Shown here: positions 49,185 through 55,054 of the stretch, piece by piece
Position numbering within the stretch: position 1 is the first letter of the stretch
Layout: each line of letters begins with the position of its first letter
Assembly: GCF_017876495.1 (NCBI RefSeq)
Contig: NZ_JAGIOB010000001.1
Span: forward strand, 1,426,001 to 1,490,000
DNA length: 64,000 bases
From: Microlunatus capsulatus
Lineage (GTDB): Bacteria; Actinomycetota; Actinomycetes; Propionibacteriales; Propionibacteriaceae
Reading direction: 5' to 3'
Program-made: the position numbers and the translations under genes
The notes under the pieces: generated by a model
The model's input: the letters and a program-made list of their open reading frames with translations, nothing else
Told to the model about the DNA's origin: nothing
Database searches by the model: none

Positions 49185-49293
49185 GCGCAGCCCGTCCCGG
49201 GAGCGGTGTATCAGGGCTCCCCAGATCGCCTCCTGACCGGTACAACTGGGTGGGCGCGCCCGCGCGCCGCCCGACCCCACCGGAGAGCGAGCG

Positions 49294-51123
49294 ATGACCT
49301 CAGACCCCCGCGCCAGCGCCACCCCGGGCCAGCGAGCGCCCCTGACCGGCTTCGGCCCGGTGGACACCAGCGGGATGGACACCTCGCCGCAGCGGGGGGC
49401 GCCGCCCGCGGACCTGCTGCAGCGCCACGACGGCCGCACCCTCGACCCGAGCACCGCCGTCCGCGCCGGCGGGCAGCCGCTGCAGAGCACCGTCTACCGG
49501 GGCAGCCGGCTGCTGGTCCGCCCCACCGCCCACGAGGACGCCGTGCTGGCCCGGCTCACCGAGGTGGCCGGCACGCGCTTCGGCCTCGACGTCGTCGTCG
49601 ACCCGCTGGACGTGCGGCTGCGCGACCTGGCCCGGGCGGCCGGGATCGGCCCGGAGGAGCCGCAGCCGCTGGTGCTCCGGGTGGAGCTGCGGGCCCGCTA
49701 CGACGACGGCCCCGTCGGCCCGCCCGACGCCTGGCCGGTGCTGCAGGCCTTCCGGCACAGCTACCCGGCCGACTCGGTCGAGGGGGCGAGCGTCCAGCTC
49801 GACCACGTCGTCACGCCGCACGGGGAGGACGGGGTCACGGCCAACCCGTACTGGAAGGTGCCGAGCGCGTCGGGCAACCCGTACTGGAAGGTCCCCGGCA
49901 CCTCGGGCCAGCCCTACTGGAAGGTGCCCGGCGGCACCGACGCCGCGGGCGGGCTGGCCGAGTACGCCGCCCCCGGGCACGGCGGCCGGACCCCGGTGGC
50001 CTGGCTGGGTCCGGAGCCGGTGCTGAGCCCGCTGCCGGCCGGCCGCCGGCGCCCCGTCGTCGCCGTCCTCGACACCGGGATCGGCCGGCACTACTGGCTC
50101 CCCGAGGGCGAGGTCGTCGACCGCGCCCCCACGGTGGAGGGGCTGCGAATCGGGCTCACCGACGCCTCGACCGCCCCCGAGGACCCGTCGGTCCGCAGCA
50201 ACACCCTGGTCGGCGAGGTCGACCCCAGCGCGGGCCACGGCACCTTCATCGCCGGGCTGGTCCGGCAGAAGTGCCCGGACGCGCGGCTGCTGGCCGTCCG
50301 GGTGGTGCAGGGCGACGGCGTCGTCGCCGAGGCCGACCTGCTGGAGGCCCTCGGCATGCTCTGGCTGCGCCAGGCGCTGGCGCTGCGCCGGGGCCGTCCC
50401 GAGGAGCTGGTCGACGTCGTCTCGATGTCGCTCGGCTACTACCACGAGACCCCGGCCGACGCGGCCTTCGACCCCCTGCTGCTCGCCCCCGTCCGGGCGC
50501 TGGGCCGGCTCGGCGTGGCCGTCGTCGTCTCGGCCGGCAACGACGCCACCCTGCGGCCGATGTACCCGGCGGCCTTCTCCCCGCACCCCGGCGGGCTGGT
50601 GCCGGCCCCGCTGGCCGACGAGGTGCCCGTCGTCGCCGTGGGCGCCACCAACCCCGACCGCACCGTCGCGCTGTTCTCCAACGAGGGTCCGTGGGTGCAC
50701 GCGCACCGGCCGGGCGCGGCCCTGGTCAGCACGCTGCCGGCCTTCGACGGCTCCCGCTCCCCCACCCTGGAGCGCCGTCCGCTGGGGATGGCGCCGCGGG
50801 CCACCATCGACCCGGACGACTTCAGCGCCGGCTTCGGGGTCTGGAGCGGCACGTCGTTCTCGGCGCCGGTGCTGGTCGGGGAGATCGCGCAGCACCTGCA
50901 CGCCTCCGGCGCCCTGCGGGCCGACGACGTCGACCCGGCCGCCGCGGTGGCGCGGGCCTGGGCCGCGGTGACCGCCCGGGTGCCGTCGCTGGTCCGGCCG
51001 GGCACCACCGGGCCGGACACGACCGGGCACGACGGGCAGGACGGGCAGGACGGGCAGGACGGGGCCGGGACCACCGGCACCACGGACGGCGAGCACACGG
51101 ACGGGACGTGGGTGGGGCGATGA
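49294..51123 (+). CDS. Cytoplasmic subtilisin-like (S8) protease with YWKVP repeats
   Basis: A 609-residue serine protease without signal peptide or membrane segment. The N-terminal ~180 residues are of unknown fold; residues 184-216 contain three 11-residue repeats ([33 protein letters not shown]). The S8 domain has the full catalytic set: Asp260 (VLDTGIG), His315 (GHGTFIAG), oxyanion Asn416 (SAGND) and Ser521 (SGTSFSAP). The C-terminus has a DGQ tandem repeat (gacgggcag x3) and a Thr/Gly-rich tail. It is the first gene of an operon with a sigma factor (ATGA overlap) and an Ig-like protein. A TACAAC hexamer at 49241-49246 could be the -10; GGAG precedes ATG. Substrate unknown; autoprocessing at the repeats is possible. 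Confidence 0.88.
49843..49941 (+). repeat. Three in-frame 33-bp repeats encoding N/Q-PYWKVP units
   Basis: Units begin at 49843, 49876 and 49909 and encode PYWKVP followed by a Gly/Ser/Thr spacer. They lie between the N-terminal region and the catalytic domain of the subtilase. Confidence 0.9.
51031..51057 (+). repeat. GACGGGCAG tandem repeat in the subtilase C-terminus
   Basis: Three exact 9-bp copies, encoding DGQ units; a likely slippage-prone linker. Confidence 0.8.
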
Positions 51124-51767
51124 CGGGCGCGGTGGAGGACGGGGCGGACGGCCGGACGGGAGGGGCCGGCGGTGCGGAGCCGGAGCGGCTGGCGGTGCGG
51201 GCGGCGCGGTTGTTCCTGGCCTACCGCGACGGCGACGCGGCGCGGATGGGTGACCTGGTCACGCTGGTGACGCCGCTGCTGTGGCACACCGCGCGCGGCG
51301 CCCGGCTGGACGCGGCGACCGCGGAGGACGTGCTGCAGACGGTGTGGCTGGCCCTCGTGCGGCACGCCGACACCATCACCGACCCGGTGGCGGTGCTGCA
51401 GTGGCTGGTGGTCAGCACCAAGCGCGAGTCGTGGCGGGTGTCGCGGGCGCAGACCCGCACCCGCCCCGAGGACTTCGAGGCGAGCGACAGCGCCGCCGGG
51501 GCCGTGGTCGAGGCCGTCGGCACCCCGTCGGTCGAGGAGGAGGTGCTGGGTGCGGCCACCAACTCGACGCTGTGGCGCCACATCGCCGCGCTACCGGAGC
51601 GCTGCCGGGCGCTGCTGCGGGTGATCGCCTTCGCCGACCGCCCCGACTACGCCGAGCTGTCCCGCTCCCTGGGGATGCCCCAGGGCAGCATCGGACCCAC
51701 CCGCGGCCGCTGCCTGGCGAAGCTCCGCCTGGCCCTGGCCGCCGATCCCGCCTGGGAGACCCCGTGA
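51120..51767 (+). CDS. Sigma-70 family (ECF-like) RNA polymerase sigma factor
   Basis: A 215-residue sigma factor. Region 2 lies at ~30-100 (LVTPLLWHTARGARLDAATAEDVLQTVWLALVRH in pieces), and region 4 at ~150-205 (LPERCRALLRVIAFADRPDYAELSRSLGMPQGSIGPTRGRCLAKLR in pieces), a clear helix-turn-helix. The linker is short, as in ECF factors. It should redirect RNA polymerase to an unknown regulon, perhaps including this operon. ATG overlaps the subtilase stop (ATGA) and its own stop overlaps the next GTG (GTGA). No classical zinc anti-sigma is nearby. Confidence 0.88.
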   Translation: MTGAVEDGADGRTGGAGGAEPERLAVRAARLFLAYRDGDAARMGDLVTLVTPLLWHTARGARLDAATAEDVLQTVWLALVRHADTITDPVAVLQWLVVSTKRESWRVSRAQTRTRPEDFEASDSAAGAVVEAVGTPSVEEEVLGAATNSTLWRHIAALPERCRALLRVIAFADRPDYAELSRSLGMPQGSIGPTRGRCLAKLRLALAADPAWETP

Positions 51768-52282
51768 GCACGCCGGACCCGCGCGACGACGACGCCCGGC
51801 TCGACGCCCTGGCCGCCGAGCCGCTCGACGCGGACGACGCCGCGGTGCTGGGCGCGATCCGCGCCCTGCTGGAGGAGCACGACCCCGTCCCCGAGGGCCT
51901 GGTGGACCGGATCGAGTTCGAGCTCACCCTCGACGCGCTGCAGGCGGAGGTGGCGACCCTCACCCAGGTCGACCTGGTCGGCTCCGGGGCCCGCAGCTCC
52001 ACGGAGGCGGTCCGGACCATCACCTTCACCAGCGAGTCGGTGACCACGATGGTCACCCTGACCCCGCAGGAGGCGGGCAGCGTCCGCGTCGACGGCTGGG
52101 CCGCCCCCGGCGCCGGCGTCCGGGTCGAGGTCCTGCACGCCGGCGGCAGCCAGGCGACCACCGCCGACGAGGACGGCCGCTTCGTCTTCGAGCGCGTCCC
52201 CGTCGGCCTGGCCAAGTTCGTCCTGCACGTCCCCGCCGGCGACGGCGAGGCCACGGTCCTGAGCCCGGCGGTGGAGCTGTAA
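51764..52282 (+). CDS. Small protein with Ig-like (carboxypeptidase-regulatory-like) domain, candidate sigma partner
   Basis: A 172-residue protein. Residues ~1-70 are acidic and helical (DDAAVLGAIRALLEEHDPVPEG), and ~105-165 form a beta-sandwich of the carboxypeptidase-regulatory-like type (GAGVRVEVLHAGG, GRFVFERVPVG). There is no signal peptide, Cys pair or membrane segment. The GTGA overlap with the sigma gene is the position typical of an anti-sigma or sigma-modulating protein, so it may bind the sigma factor or present it to a protease. This is inference; no homologue is recognised. Confidence 0.7.
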   Translation: MSTPDPRDDDARLDALAAEPLDADDAAVLGAIRALLEEHDPVPEGLVDRIEFELTLDALQAEVATLTQVDLVGSGARSSTEAVRTITFTSESVTTMVTLTPQEAGSVRVDGWAAPGAGVRVEVLHAGGSQATTADEDGRFVFERVPVGLAKFVLHVPAGDGEATVLSPAVEL

Positions 52283-52465
52283 GAGGGTCGAGCGAACCCG
52301 AGCGGCAACCGGACGGGGCGCCGCCGGACGGAGGAGGAGCGGGTGGACACGTTCCTCGTCCACCCGGGACGACGACGCCGGCGGGCCAGAGCCCCGGACG
52401 CGTCCGAGCGGAGCGAGGACCGACAGCACCGTCGCCTGCCTCTGTACGTGACCCGCCGTGCGGGC

Positions 52466-52471
52466 CAGGAT
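52466..52471 (+). promoter_or_regulatory. Leaderless -10 box (CAGGAT) of the CHAT gene
   Basis: CAGGAT, 6 nt, GTG at 52478. Upstream, GGGTGGAC (52341-52348) and GTCCACCC (52358-52365) form an 8-bp hairpin, which suits a terminator or leader element after the Ig-like gene. Confidence 0.5.
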
Positions 52472-52477
52472 GGGCGG

Positions 52478-55054
52478 GTGCTGGTCCAGGCGACCGCGGC
52501 CCACCGCCGCGCCCAGGCGCAGTGCGACCGGGGACGCTTCGACCTGGCGCACCGCGGGCTGCTGCGGGCCCTGGACCTGCTGGACGCGGCTCCGCCGGAC
52601 GCGGAAGCCCGGGCCGTCCGCGTCCGGGTGCTGATGACGCTGGCCGTGGTCGAGGACGAGACGCGCGGGGACGGCGGCCCGCGGCTGGCCGACGCCCGCC
52701 GGCTGGCCGAGGACCTCGACGACGCTGCGCTCGGCTTCGCCGTCCACAACGCCGCCGCCACCCGGGCCCTGCGCCGCGGCGAGCACGACGCGGCCCTCGT
52801 GGAGTTCGGCGTCGCCGAGGGGCTGGAGGCCTCCGCGTCCCGGCGCGACGCGAGCATCCTGCACCTCAACCGCGGCAACCTGGCCCTGCAGAGGCTCGAC
52901 CTCGGCGCCGCCCGGCACGACCTGGAGCGCGCCGTCCGGCTCGCCGAGGGCTCGGCGGACGACAGCCTGGGCAGCGTCGCCTTCATGGCCGCGCACAACC
53001 TCGGCTACCTCGAGCACCTGCGCGGGAACCTGCCGCGGGCGCTGCAGCTGATGGACGACGCGGCCGCGCTGTCGGCGGGCACGTCGCTGGCCATCTCCGG
53101 GCTGGACCGGGCGCGGGTGCTCATCGAGGCCGGGCTCACCGACGCCGCCGACGCGGTGCTGGCGCAGGCCGAGCAGGAGTTCCGCCGCGGCCGGCTGACG
53201 CACGAGCGGGCCGAGACCGAGCTGGCCCGGGCCGAGTGCGCGCTGCTCGGCGAGCGGCTCGGCGACGCCCGCGCGCTGGCCGCCTCGGCCCGGACGCGCT
53301 TCGCCCGGCGCGGCAACGACCGCTGGCGCCGGGTCGCCGAGCTGACCCTGCTGACCGCCGACCAGGCGGCCGGCCGCCCGCCCGCCCGGCTGCTCGCCCC
53401 CGCCCGCCGGCTGGCGGCGGAGTTCGCGGCGCAGGACCTCGAGCTGTCCGCCCGGACGGCGGCGCTGGTCGGCTGCGCGGCGCTGACGGCGCTGGGCCGC
53501 CCCGACCAGGCCCGCGCCTGGTTCGCCGAGCTGGACCCCATCAGCCGCACCGACCCCATCGGGCTCAAGCTCCAGCAGCGGGTGGTGGCGGCCGAGATCT
53601 CCCTCGCCGGGCAGCAGGAGGCGGCCGCCCGCAGCCAGGTCCGGTCCGGCCTGACCGAGCTCGGCCGGCACCAGGCCCAGTTCGGCAGCCTCGACCTGCA
53701 GACCGCGGGCGCGGTGCACGGCCGGCGGCTCGTCGCCCTCGACCTGCGGCTCGCCCTGGCGGGGCGCCGGCCCGCCGGGCTGTTCAACGCCGTCGAGCGC
53801 GGGCGCGCGGTCTCCCGCCGGCTGACGGCGGTGACCCCGCCCGCCGACGCGTCCGAGCCGGCGCTGGCCGAGCTGCGGCAGGTCACCGAGGCCCTCCGGG
53901 CCCTCGGCGACGACCCGGCCGAGCGCAGCACCGTGCTGGCCCTGCGGCAGCGCAGCGCCGCCCTGTACAGCCAGCTCAACGCCCTCTCCTGGCGCGCCGT
54001 CGGGGCCGGTGAGGTGGTGCACGCCGCGCCGATGGCCACCGTCGCCGAGCAGGTGGCGGCGCAGGGGAAGGTGCTGGTCAGCTACGTCCAGGTCGAGGGC
54101 CGCTGGTCGGCCGTGGTGCTGGGCCGGGGCCGGCCGCGCGTCGTCGACCTGCCCGGCGACGCCCGCACCGTCGAGCTCTCACGCCGCGCGCAGGCCGACC
54201 TCGACGTGCTCGCGCTGGGCCGGGTGCCCGCAGAGGTGCGTCGGGCGGTGGAGCGGTCCCTGGCCCGCTCGCTCGCGGCCCTCGACGCGCAGCTGGTCCG
54301 GCCGCTACGGCTCGGGGACCAGGCGCTCGTCGTCGTGCCCACCGGGCCGACGTCGACGCTGCCGTGGACCTGCCTGCCCAGCCTGCGCGGCCGTCCCGTC
54401 GAGGTGTCCCCCACGGCGACGTCCTGGCTCGCGGGCACCCGCGGCGCTGCCGGCACGGAGCCGCTGCGGGTGGCCGCGCTGGCCGGGCCGGGGCTGGCCA
54501 GCGCCGTCGACGAGGTGTCGGAGGTGGCCACCACCTGGCGCCCGACGGCGGAGGCGACCGCCGCGACCGGCGGCGGCGCGACCCGCTCCCGGCTGACGAC
54601 GAGCCTGGCCACGGCCACCGTCGTGCACGTCGCCGCGCACGGGTCCCACCAGCGGCAGAGCCCGCTGTTCTCCTCGCTCCAGCTGGCCGACGGGGCCCTG
54701 TTCGCCTACGAGGTGGGCGCCGTGGCCCCGCACGTCGTGCTCTCGGCCTGCGAGCTGGGCCAGGCCACCACCCGGCCCGGCGACGAGGCGCTGGGCTGGA
54801 CGCGGGTGCTGCTGGCGCTGGGCTCGCGCTGCGTCGTCGCCGGGGTCAGCCAGGTGGCCGACGACCGCGCCCGCGAGGTGATGGTCGACTACCACCGCCG
54901 GCTGGCCGGGGGCGACGACGCGGCCACCGCGCTCGCCGGGGCCACCGAGCACGGGTCGGTCGTGCCGTTCGTCTGCTTCGGCTCGTCCTGGCGGGCGGTG
55001 CCCCCGCGGGTGCGCCCGGCCGAGCCCGTCGGGCTCGCCCTCGCGTCGCGCTGA
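52478..55054 (+). CDS. TPR-CHAT protein (caspase-like protease of the separase/CHAT clan)
   Basis: An 858-residue cytoplasmic protein. Residues ~1-450 are Ala/Leu/Arg-rich helical repeats of the TPR type; the C-terminal CHAT domain (~560-845) has the catalytic pair His721 (HVAAHGS) and Cys758 (LSACELG). CHAT proteins are caspase-related proteases that cut a specific partner after activation, sometimes triggering cell death. No target or adaptor is obvious except the neighbouring subtilase, sigma and Ig-like proteins. GTG at 52478 is chosen because CAGGAT ends 6 nt upstream; GTG at 52343 has a good ribosome site but begins with ~45 Arg-rich residues unlike the repeats and lies within a hairpin. 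It converges with trpS. Confidence 0.85.
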   Translation: MLVQATAAHRRAQAQCDRGRFDLAHRGLLRALDLLDAAPPDAEARAVRVRVLMTLAVVEDETRGDGGPRLADARRLAEDLDDAALGFAVHNAAATRALRRGEHDAALVEFGVAEGLEASASRRDASILHLNRGNLALQRLDLGAARHDLERAVRLAEGSADDSLGSVAFMAAHNLGYLEHLRGNLPRALQLMDDAAALSAGTSLAISGLDRARVLIEAGLTDAADAVLAQAEQEFRRGRLTHERAETELARAECALLGERLGDARALAASARTRFARRGNDRWRRVAELTLLTADQAAGRPPARLLAPARRLAAEFAAQDLELSARTAALVGCAALTALGRPDQARAWFAELDPISRTDPIGLKLQQRVVAAEISLAGQQEAAARSQVRSGLTELGRHQAQFGSLDLQTAGAVHGRRLVALDLRLALAGRRPAGLFNAVERGRAVSRRLTAVTPPADASEPALAELRQVTEALRALGDDPAERSTVLALRQRSAALYSQLNALSWRAVGAGEVVHAAPMATVAEQVAAQGKVLVSYVQVEGRWSAVVLGRGRPRVVDLPGDARTVELSRRAQADLDVLALGRVPAEVRRAVERSLARSLAALDAQLVRPLRLGDQALVVVPTGPTSTLPWTCLPSLRGRPVEVSPTATSWLAGTRGAAGTEPLRVAALAGPGLASAVDEVSEVATTWRPTAEATAATGGGATRSRLTTSLATATVVHVAAHGSHQRQSPLFSSLQLADGALFAYEVGAVAPHVVLSACELGQATTRPGDEALGWTRVLLALGSRCVVAGVSQVADDRAREVMVDYHRRLAGGDDAATALAGATEHGSVVPFVCFGSSWRAVPPRVRPAEPVGLALASR

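Follow-up and report, generated by a model that had tools for sequence, protein, structure and literature searches.

The closest described parallels to the locus analyzed here are systems in which a protease controls the activity of a sigma factor. In the CASP system of type III-E CRISPR (Craspase), the TPR-CHAT protease Csx29 has been shown to cut Csx30, an inhibitor of CASP-sigma, and the model in which this cut relieves the inhibition of the sigma factor is supported by the authors (PMC10028731). The same paper mentions the RseA/RpoE and RsiW/SigW pairs, in which a protease destroys the anti-sigma and the sigma factor is released. The locus that we compare with these systems lies in a stretch of 64,000 nucleotides from Microlunatus capsulatus (contig NZ_JAGIOB010000001.1, positions 1,426,001 to 1,490,000), hereafter called the window, and is composed of four genes: a subtilase of family S8, a sigma factor, a small protein with an Ig-like part, and a TPR-CHAT protease (Table 1).

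Table 1. Features of the four-gene module, with positions counted from the first letter of the window.
Feature	Position	Strand	Basis
Promoter-like motif GTATCA-N16-CTCCT	49208..49234	+	exact match, 60 nt before S8 start
S8 subtilase, 609 aa, cytoplasmic by appearance	49294..51123	+	Pfam Peptidase_S8 60.2 bits, cut-off 21.8
Propeptide-like N-terminal domain of S8, residues about 64-173	49483..49812	+	AlphaFold2, structural alignment
Tandem array NPYWKVP/QPYWKVP, three units, in the predicted disordered linker	49843..49929	+	also a 33-nt repeat by two repeat finders
S8 catalytic domain, residues about 236-567	49999..50994	+	subtilisin alignment
ECF-type sigma factor	51120..51767	+	TIGR02937 46.5 bits, cut-off 42.9
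Small protein, Ig-like/CarboxypepD_reg-like part, candidate anti-sigma	51764..52282	+	CarboxypepD_reg 21.9 bits, below the 32.3 cut-off
TPR-CHAT protease, start uncertain	52478..55054	+	CHAT 75.2 bits, cut-off 24
TPR-CHAT His721	54638-54640	+	
TPR-CHAT Cys758	54749-54751	+	

The original prediction, made from the letters of this DNA, placed the four genes and had the sigma gene overlap the S8 gene by ATGA and the small-protein gene overlap the sigma gene by GTGA, all of which is confirmed in the window sequence. It also described a subtilase with an intact Asp/His/Asn/Ser set and no export signal. The catalytic set together with a score above the Pfam cut-off places the protein in the Peptidase S8 family, and inspection by eye reveals no export signal at its N-terminus; all four proteins look soluble by the same means. 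The sigma factor belongs to the ECF type by its TIGR02937 score, and a Pfam search matched region 2 of the protein and no region 4 model. The small protein has an N-terminal part that is probably helical (by eye), followed by the Ig-like/CarboxypepD_reg-like part; sequence searches gave nothing firm on an Ig-like fold, and no anti-sigma family was found among the matches of 39 members of this protein group. The fourth protein is assigned to the CHAT peptidases by its His/Cys dyad and its Pfam score. The predicted numbering of this dyad, His721/Cys758, fits a GTG start at 52478, and the frame is open upstream to 52343. Residues 1-29 and 1-47 of the longer frame resemble sequence found at two further sites of this genome, which makes 52478 the more probable start; the part between 52343 and 52478 is perhaps a non-coding repeat. 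The neighbors of the module in the window are an antiporter and a trpS-like gene (by eye).

The gene set is conserved among soil actinobacteria. All four genes occur together at 36 of the 45 CHAT-anchored loci in a scan of named genomes and, when the sigma factor is taken as the anchor, at 31 of the 35 loci having at least 5.5 kb on both sides (37 of 49 with flanks of any length). The sigma anchor matched 51 of 296 genomes of the class at E 1e-25, at 52 places of which 49 were counted as new, the other three being loci already included, and five of the 45 CHAT-anchored loci are the same contigs as loci of our first set. The long-flank exceptions are L157, L168, L171, and L183. Five of the nine CHAT-anchored loci without the full set lie on short contigs; L070 and L079, which do not, are devoid of the sigma and Ig-like genes, and L101 and L109, likewise not on short contigs, are devoid of the S8 gene. 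The first set was searched with the window's own proteins, and CHAT was matched in 23 of 57 relatives. Its 28 stretches, two of them on contigs shorter than 6 kb, contain all four genes in 15 cases, all except a detectable Ig-like gene in six, S8 and CHAT only in five, sigma and CHAT in one, and CHAT only in one. Both the order S8-sigma-Ig-CHAT and the order sigma-Ig-S8-CHAT are found, as are divergent layouts. In the 4.4-Mb, single-contig genome of M. capsulatus, Pfam finds CHAT once and S8 five times, and the set recurs from two anchors; we conclude that the association is not due to chance.

The active sites are conserved along with the genes. All 99 of the S8 relatives retain the tetrad. 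Of 104 CHAT relatives, 100 retain the dyad and four are cut off, so that both sites are invariant wherever they are readable. The original prediction would have failed had the genes not been conserved together elsewhere or had the catalytic residues been lost in orthologues; it withstood both checks, and the proposal of a proteolytic signaling system is thereby well supported, while its further ideas, that the small protein restrains the sigma factor and that one protease activates the other, stay hypothetical; judged by gene neighborhoods and alignments, the four genes form a real, conserved system. As far as open-library searches show, this system has not been described in the open literature: no open paper on the four-gene set or on the motif discussed below was found, and a mention in an ECF re-classification paper is still possible. 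The module follows rplA at a distance of 0.3-2.9 kb in 12 loci, six of which have rpoB downstream, and rplJ and rplL were recognized by eye in one locus. This placement speaks for a settled locus in these genomes and not for a defense island. Nine loci (L071, L075, L078, L082, L083, L085, L086, L102, and L106) have nusG and rplA ahead of the module, and six of the nine have rpoB after it, the module standing there in either gene order and apparently at the same site.

The subtilase may be built like a zymogen. An AlphaFold2 model constructed from 40 sequences (pTM 0.80, mean pLDDT 75.9) contains an N-terminal domain at residues 61-170 with pLDDT of 82-97 in blocks of ten, a linker at residues 177-236 with pLDDT below 50, and a catalytic domain that is mostly well predicted. 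By sequence, Pfam assigns no propeptide family to the S8 protein. In the structural alignment, most subtilisin rows place subtilisin residues 1-2 opposite model residues 235-238, and the rows of PCSK9 and of unprocessed pro-subtilisin E (3whi_A) start at model residues 61-70; in rows with a prodomain, a further 66-86 residues are aligned beyond those of mature subtilisins, in an alignment that barely tests the part before residue 236. Because the start of mature subtilisin falls close to the end of the linker, the model makes the pro/mature junction the most likely place of the linker's tandem array. Unlike the pro-subtilisin/PCSK9 fold, the protein has an array-bearing disordered linker, some 60 residues long, at the junction, and no export signal is seen by eye.

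The array lies between an LDH-like motif and a YxxPGxGGRxPV motif, and its place is constant among S8 genes, 82-120 residues ahead of GHGTF. The unit is different in other lineages (PVTSGH eleven times, PYYAGV three to five times, PYTDPH six times, PFTRGA eight times, and more), and the number of units per array ranges from two to eleven, with only two in L034, L035, and L108. A lag score of at least 6 was obtained for 49 of 61 S8 genes in the first set and for nine of the 38 S8 genes listed in the second set, in which L172 and L175 were not scannable; five duplicate loci had been dropped beforehand. In a CHAT tree that left out four truncated and five duplicate sequences and the fragments L058, L059, L096, and L105, the arrays are concentrated in one clade of 61 leaves (support 0.77; 1.0 for the enclosing clade of 63 leaves), where 55 of 57 S8-bearing leaves have one; the two that do not are L081 and L149. 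By the lag score, arrays were found in none of the 36 S8-bearing leaves outside this clade (the unscanned L175 is one of the 36), and the top score there was 4. Counting four-residue words that occur at least three times ahead of the catalytic His gave a positive result in 49 of 60 S8 genes inside the clade (0.10 expected from shuffles) and in two of 39 outside it (0.08 expected). Outside the clade, ETSFG occurs three times in L049 and GHKPM four times in L175, about 13-16 residues apart. Lineage-specific repeats are hence not strictly confined to the array clade, and we have abandoned the notion that they are; most S8 genes outside it have the same neighbors and no repeats. Apart from the array, the M. 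capsulatus S8 gene has a second short tandem repeat, of DGQ type, at its C-terminus (51024-51063), which the aligned S8 proteins do not have and the nearest relative has in part.

The copy number of the units varies and the linker is predicted to be disordered, as would be expected of a neutral minisatellite, but we find this explanation scarcely credible. Equal residues one period apart were compared for their codons, with the expectation taken from each gene's own codon usage: in arrays with a score of at least 8, the codons are identical in 500 of 857 residue pairs (470 expected), and in arrays with a score of at least 6, in 117 of 223 (128 expected). Synonymous sites therefore differ about as randomly chosen codons would, while the peptide is nearly identical from unit to unit. 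Given that recent slippage would give near-complete codon identity, the peptides are old and held by selection, and on this codon test we rejected the neutral repeat. The constant place of the array argues in the same direction, as does the retention of PYYAG[VM] across genomes named Tessaracoccus, Arachnia, Arthrobacter, and Paeniglutamicibacter. Codon comparison thus indicates an array peptide that is nearly constant within a gene, different between lineages, and kept by selection. A substrate motif shared with other proteins was also considered. A back-translated pattern search for two units, PYWKVP and PYYAG[VMI], which ten genomes contain, matched PYWKVP only in the arrays of its own genome and of one relative (two of 21 genomes) and PYYAG[VMI] only in runs of three to five at the module (eight of eight genomes); for these two units the matches are confined to S8 arrays, and the candidate was rejected.

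The units share no residue that could serve as a common P1 (a basic residue is available in 13 of 58 arrays and an acidic one in eight of 58). Proteases of clan CD, such as the caspases, usually require a fixed P1 residue, and cutting of the units by the CHAT protease would consequently need a pocket that shifts. Subtilisins favor Pro at P2 and a large hydrophobic residue at P1, and their specificity is loose; Pro followed by Y, F, L, M, V, H, or W occurs in 45 of 58 arrays, and any of Y, F, W, L, M, or I in 56 of 58. Together with the predicted position at the pro/mature junction, this composition would suit autoprocessing or pseudosubstrate sites of the S8 protease itself that keep it latent, in which case the CHAT protease would act elsewhere, for example on the Ig-like protein. 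We think this unlikely, since it is not obvious why a protease of loose, subtilisin-type specificity should need the units of a gene to be identical, and since an array-like open reading frame stands alone in one genome whose search revealed no S8 protease of the module family. In that genome, of Tessaracoccus lapidicaptus (L109), the sigma, Ig-like, and CHAT genes are present, the last with an intact dyad, and the search for the S8 gene was negative where two related genomes used as controls gave 3.6e-182 and 1.5e-192. In the place of the S8 gene, after the motif, there is a 61-aa open reading frame with three PLPYYV units and one PLPYYG. The presence of this frame beside an intact CHAT suggests that the array may matter without its protease and that, as far as this single case goes, some protein besides its own S8 may be its partner. 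The codons of its four units are mostly identical; the array may thus be younger than usual, and it is possible that it spread there recently. At L101 (6373-6558), the position where the S8 gene would be is likewise occupied by a frame of 61 residues, here of low complexity; it may contain a weak PAAATP-type double and has no clear array, and the S8 gene was not found by a search run without a control of its own.

The stand-alone frame in an operon without S8 would also agree with a multivalent scaffold on which TPR-CHAT molecules dock and become activated by proximity, as in an apoptosome, with the S8 protease as a passenger or effector. TPR domains can bind short peptides, and an array offers two to eleven units. 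We regard this explanation as quite unlikely, given that some arrays have only two units. The similarity of units between loci correlates best with that of the TPR domains, and does so weakly (rho 0.16, partial 0.14, over 1485 non-independent pairs); the values for the S8 catalytic domain (0.11), the S8 pro domain (0.05), and the CHAT catalytic domain (0.04) are lower, and co-variation of the domains with array type is weak.

The module is often preceded by a bipartite promoter-like motif, which, like the array, was not part of the original prediction. In the window, the copy ahead of the S8 gene is the sole match with at most one mismatch; at least one match was also present in 19 of 100 shuffles, so the single site is not significant alone and its weight comes from other genomes. 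TATCA-N15-17-CTC was found upstream of 37 of 64 modules, where base shuffles predict 0.31, and is missing from the stretch examined in the other 27, some of these stretches being cut by contig ends. In the second set, 26 of 39 loci have GTATCA-N15-17-CTC no more than 400 bases from the module and 13 do not, with 38 matches in 245 kb at modules versus seven in 304 kb outside. The stricter GTATCA-N16-CTCYT gave 42 matches, module sites included, in 15 genomes with the module and four in 16 without (Mann-Whitney p = 1.3e-5, again with module sites included and uncorrected for kinship), and the backward control pattern gave one and 14, respectively. In 16 named module genomes there were 49 matches versus five for the control, and three of these genomes had none. 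Based on this co-occurrence we infer that the sigma factor of the module reads GTATCA-N16-CTCYT, and the motif offers a candidate regulon and reporter for the system. In L082, L085, L102, and L106, TGTCA or CGTCA replaces TATCA upstream and the CTC half is kept (by eye), which suggests a drifted sigma specificity.

We read the sequence around 32 of the 46 sites, together with 37 loci in named genomes, seven of which are longer stretches that partly repeat sites. A start codon follows the motif at a distance of about 30-60 nt at many sites, and some sites have no convincing gene. Near the motif, Microlunatus-type genomes encode an exported protein composed of PG_binding_1 and a YkuD L,D-transpeptidase domain (by Pfam, for the copy of M. 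capsulatus itself) and a PASTA protein, and L,D-transpeptidase look-alikes are found by eye in two more genomes. Three groups of exported-looking proteins without a Pfam match, formed by eye, occur near the motif in four, two, and two genomes. The motif-linked genes of Microlunatus look like envelope-type genes. In G018, which has an S8-CHAT locus without a sigma gene, a sigma look-alike is encoded elsewhere, after the motif. Four Arthrobacter-type loci (L088, L097, L107, and L108) have a further S8-type gene directly after CHAT with a GTATCA-N16-CTCYT of its own (Pfam was run on one). Elsewhere in module genomes (L251, L263, L272, L273, and L279), the motif precedes genes for a CHAT protein, an AAA-domain protein with a possible HNH-like part (by eye), an S8 protease, an M6 peptidase, and a hemerythrin-like protein (by eye).

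A damage- or phage-triggered response ending in programmed death, as the original prediction envisaged, appears very improbable. CASP, which has a TPR-CHAT protease, belongs to CRISPR immunity, the generic 'subtilase' model of PADLOC matches the S8 protein (E 1.8e-6), and the CHAT and AAA-domain proteins linked to the motif in other genera have a conflict-like look. However, the other three proteins have no PADLOC match, and the model of the anti-phage protease IetS reaches only E 0.067; by NCBIfam, the S8 protein scores 8.4 bits against a cut-off of 900 and is not an IetS/IteS member. The position downstream of rplA in 12 loci, the envelope-type genes near the motif in Microlunatus, and the scarcity of mobile records likewise leave the phage and death proposal unsupported. 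Searches for CHAT relatives turned up a single plasmid record (limit 1e-20) and a single phage record (limit 1e-5), and with a plasmid of 11.85 Mb and an unverified phage entry of 7.5 kb as the only cases, a phage or plasmid origin was rejected. The latter entry (MT838002.1, L281) is a scaffold from faeces labeled 'Bacteriophage sp.' that encodes the sigma factor, the Ig-like protein, CHAT, and a truncated S8, and is probably a misfiled bacterial contig.

On the strength of the conserved gene set, the unchanging catalytic residues, the array with its predicted structural setting, and the motif that recurs upstream, all of which are shown here, we posit a chromosomal actinobacterial sigma/anti-sigma switch with two cytoplasmic proteases, in which the CHAT protease acts on the S8 array; we hold this to be plausible, at somewhat less than an even chance. 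The sigma factor would drive its own operon and a small regulon from GTATCA-N16-CTCYT, and the Ig-like protein would hold it inactive. The TPR-CHAT protease may sense a signal via its TPR part and then recognize, and probably cut, the repeated peptide between the propeptide-like and catalytic domains of S8. The freed S8 would destroy the Ig-like protein and so release the sigma factor. By being repeated, the peptide may present a number of interchangeable sites for contact or cleavage, and its variation by lineage may keep each CHAT-S8 pair private. We are cautious about the details of this mechanism: the co-variation between domains and array type is weak, two members of the array clade have no array, some modules have no motif, the Ig-like protein matches no anti-sigma family, the units have no cleavage residue in common, the S8 protein matches the generic subtilase model of PADLOC, and most S8 genes of the sister groups are free of repeats. 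A tentative but possible extension is that the array is a private, multivalent peptide code read by its cognate TPR-CHAT protease to assemble or to fire, within a CRISPR-free, two-protease sigma cascade, the T. lapidicaptus peptide being a detached tag. The array is in our view the finding to follow, since it hints at a private recognition tag: a peptide nearly constant within a gene, with synonymous differences at chance level, that varies by lineage would make a recognition code testable by swaps.

The proposed switch is similar to RseA/RpoE and RsiW/SigW in that destruction of an anti-sigma by a protease would free the sigma factor; RseA is cut at a transmembrane segment, whereas the four proteins of the module look soluble by eye. 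Systems of EACC2 and caspase domains with an ECF sigma factor and a TPR protein have been described (PMC8195603), and the words 'subtilisin' and 'tandem repeat' are absent from that text. The likeness to CASP is closer: a TPR-CHAT protease, a sigma inhibitor (here a candidate), and an ECF-like sigma factor are encoded together. Yet the module adds a zymogen-like S8 protein with a tandem peptide array, and its CHAT protein scores 14.7 bits against the Csx29 model (NCBIfam NF041237), for which the cut-off is 300. No CRISPR-like repeats were found at 40-60 kb of the window, where direct repeats of at least 21 nt within 200 nt are limited to the S8 array and one two-copy pair, and Rfam has no match in the window at the gathering score. 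Given how far the Csx29 cut-off is missed and that this region has no CRISPR-like repeat, the locus, as judged from these comparisons, resembles CASP in outline and is not a member of it. We therefore view the module as a widespread, CRISPR-free counterpart in design to the CASP sigma cascade, through which the origin of such cascades becomes open to study.
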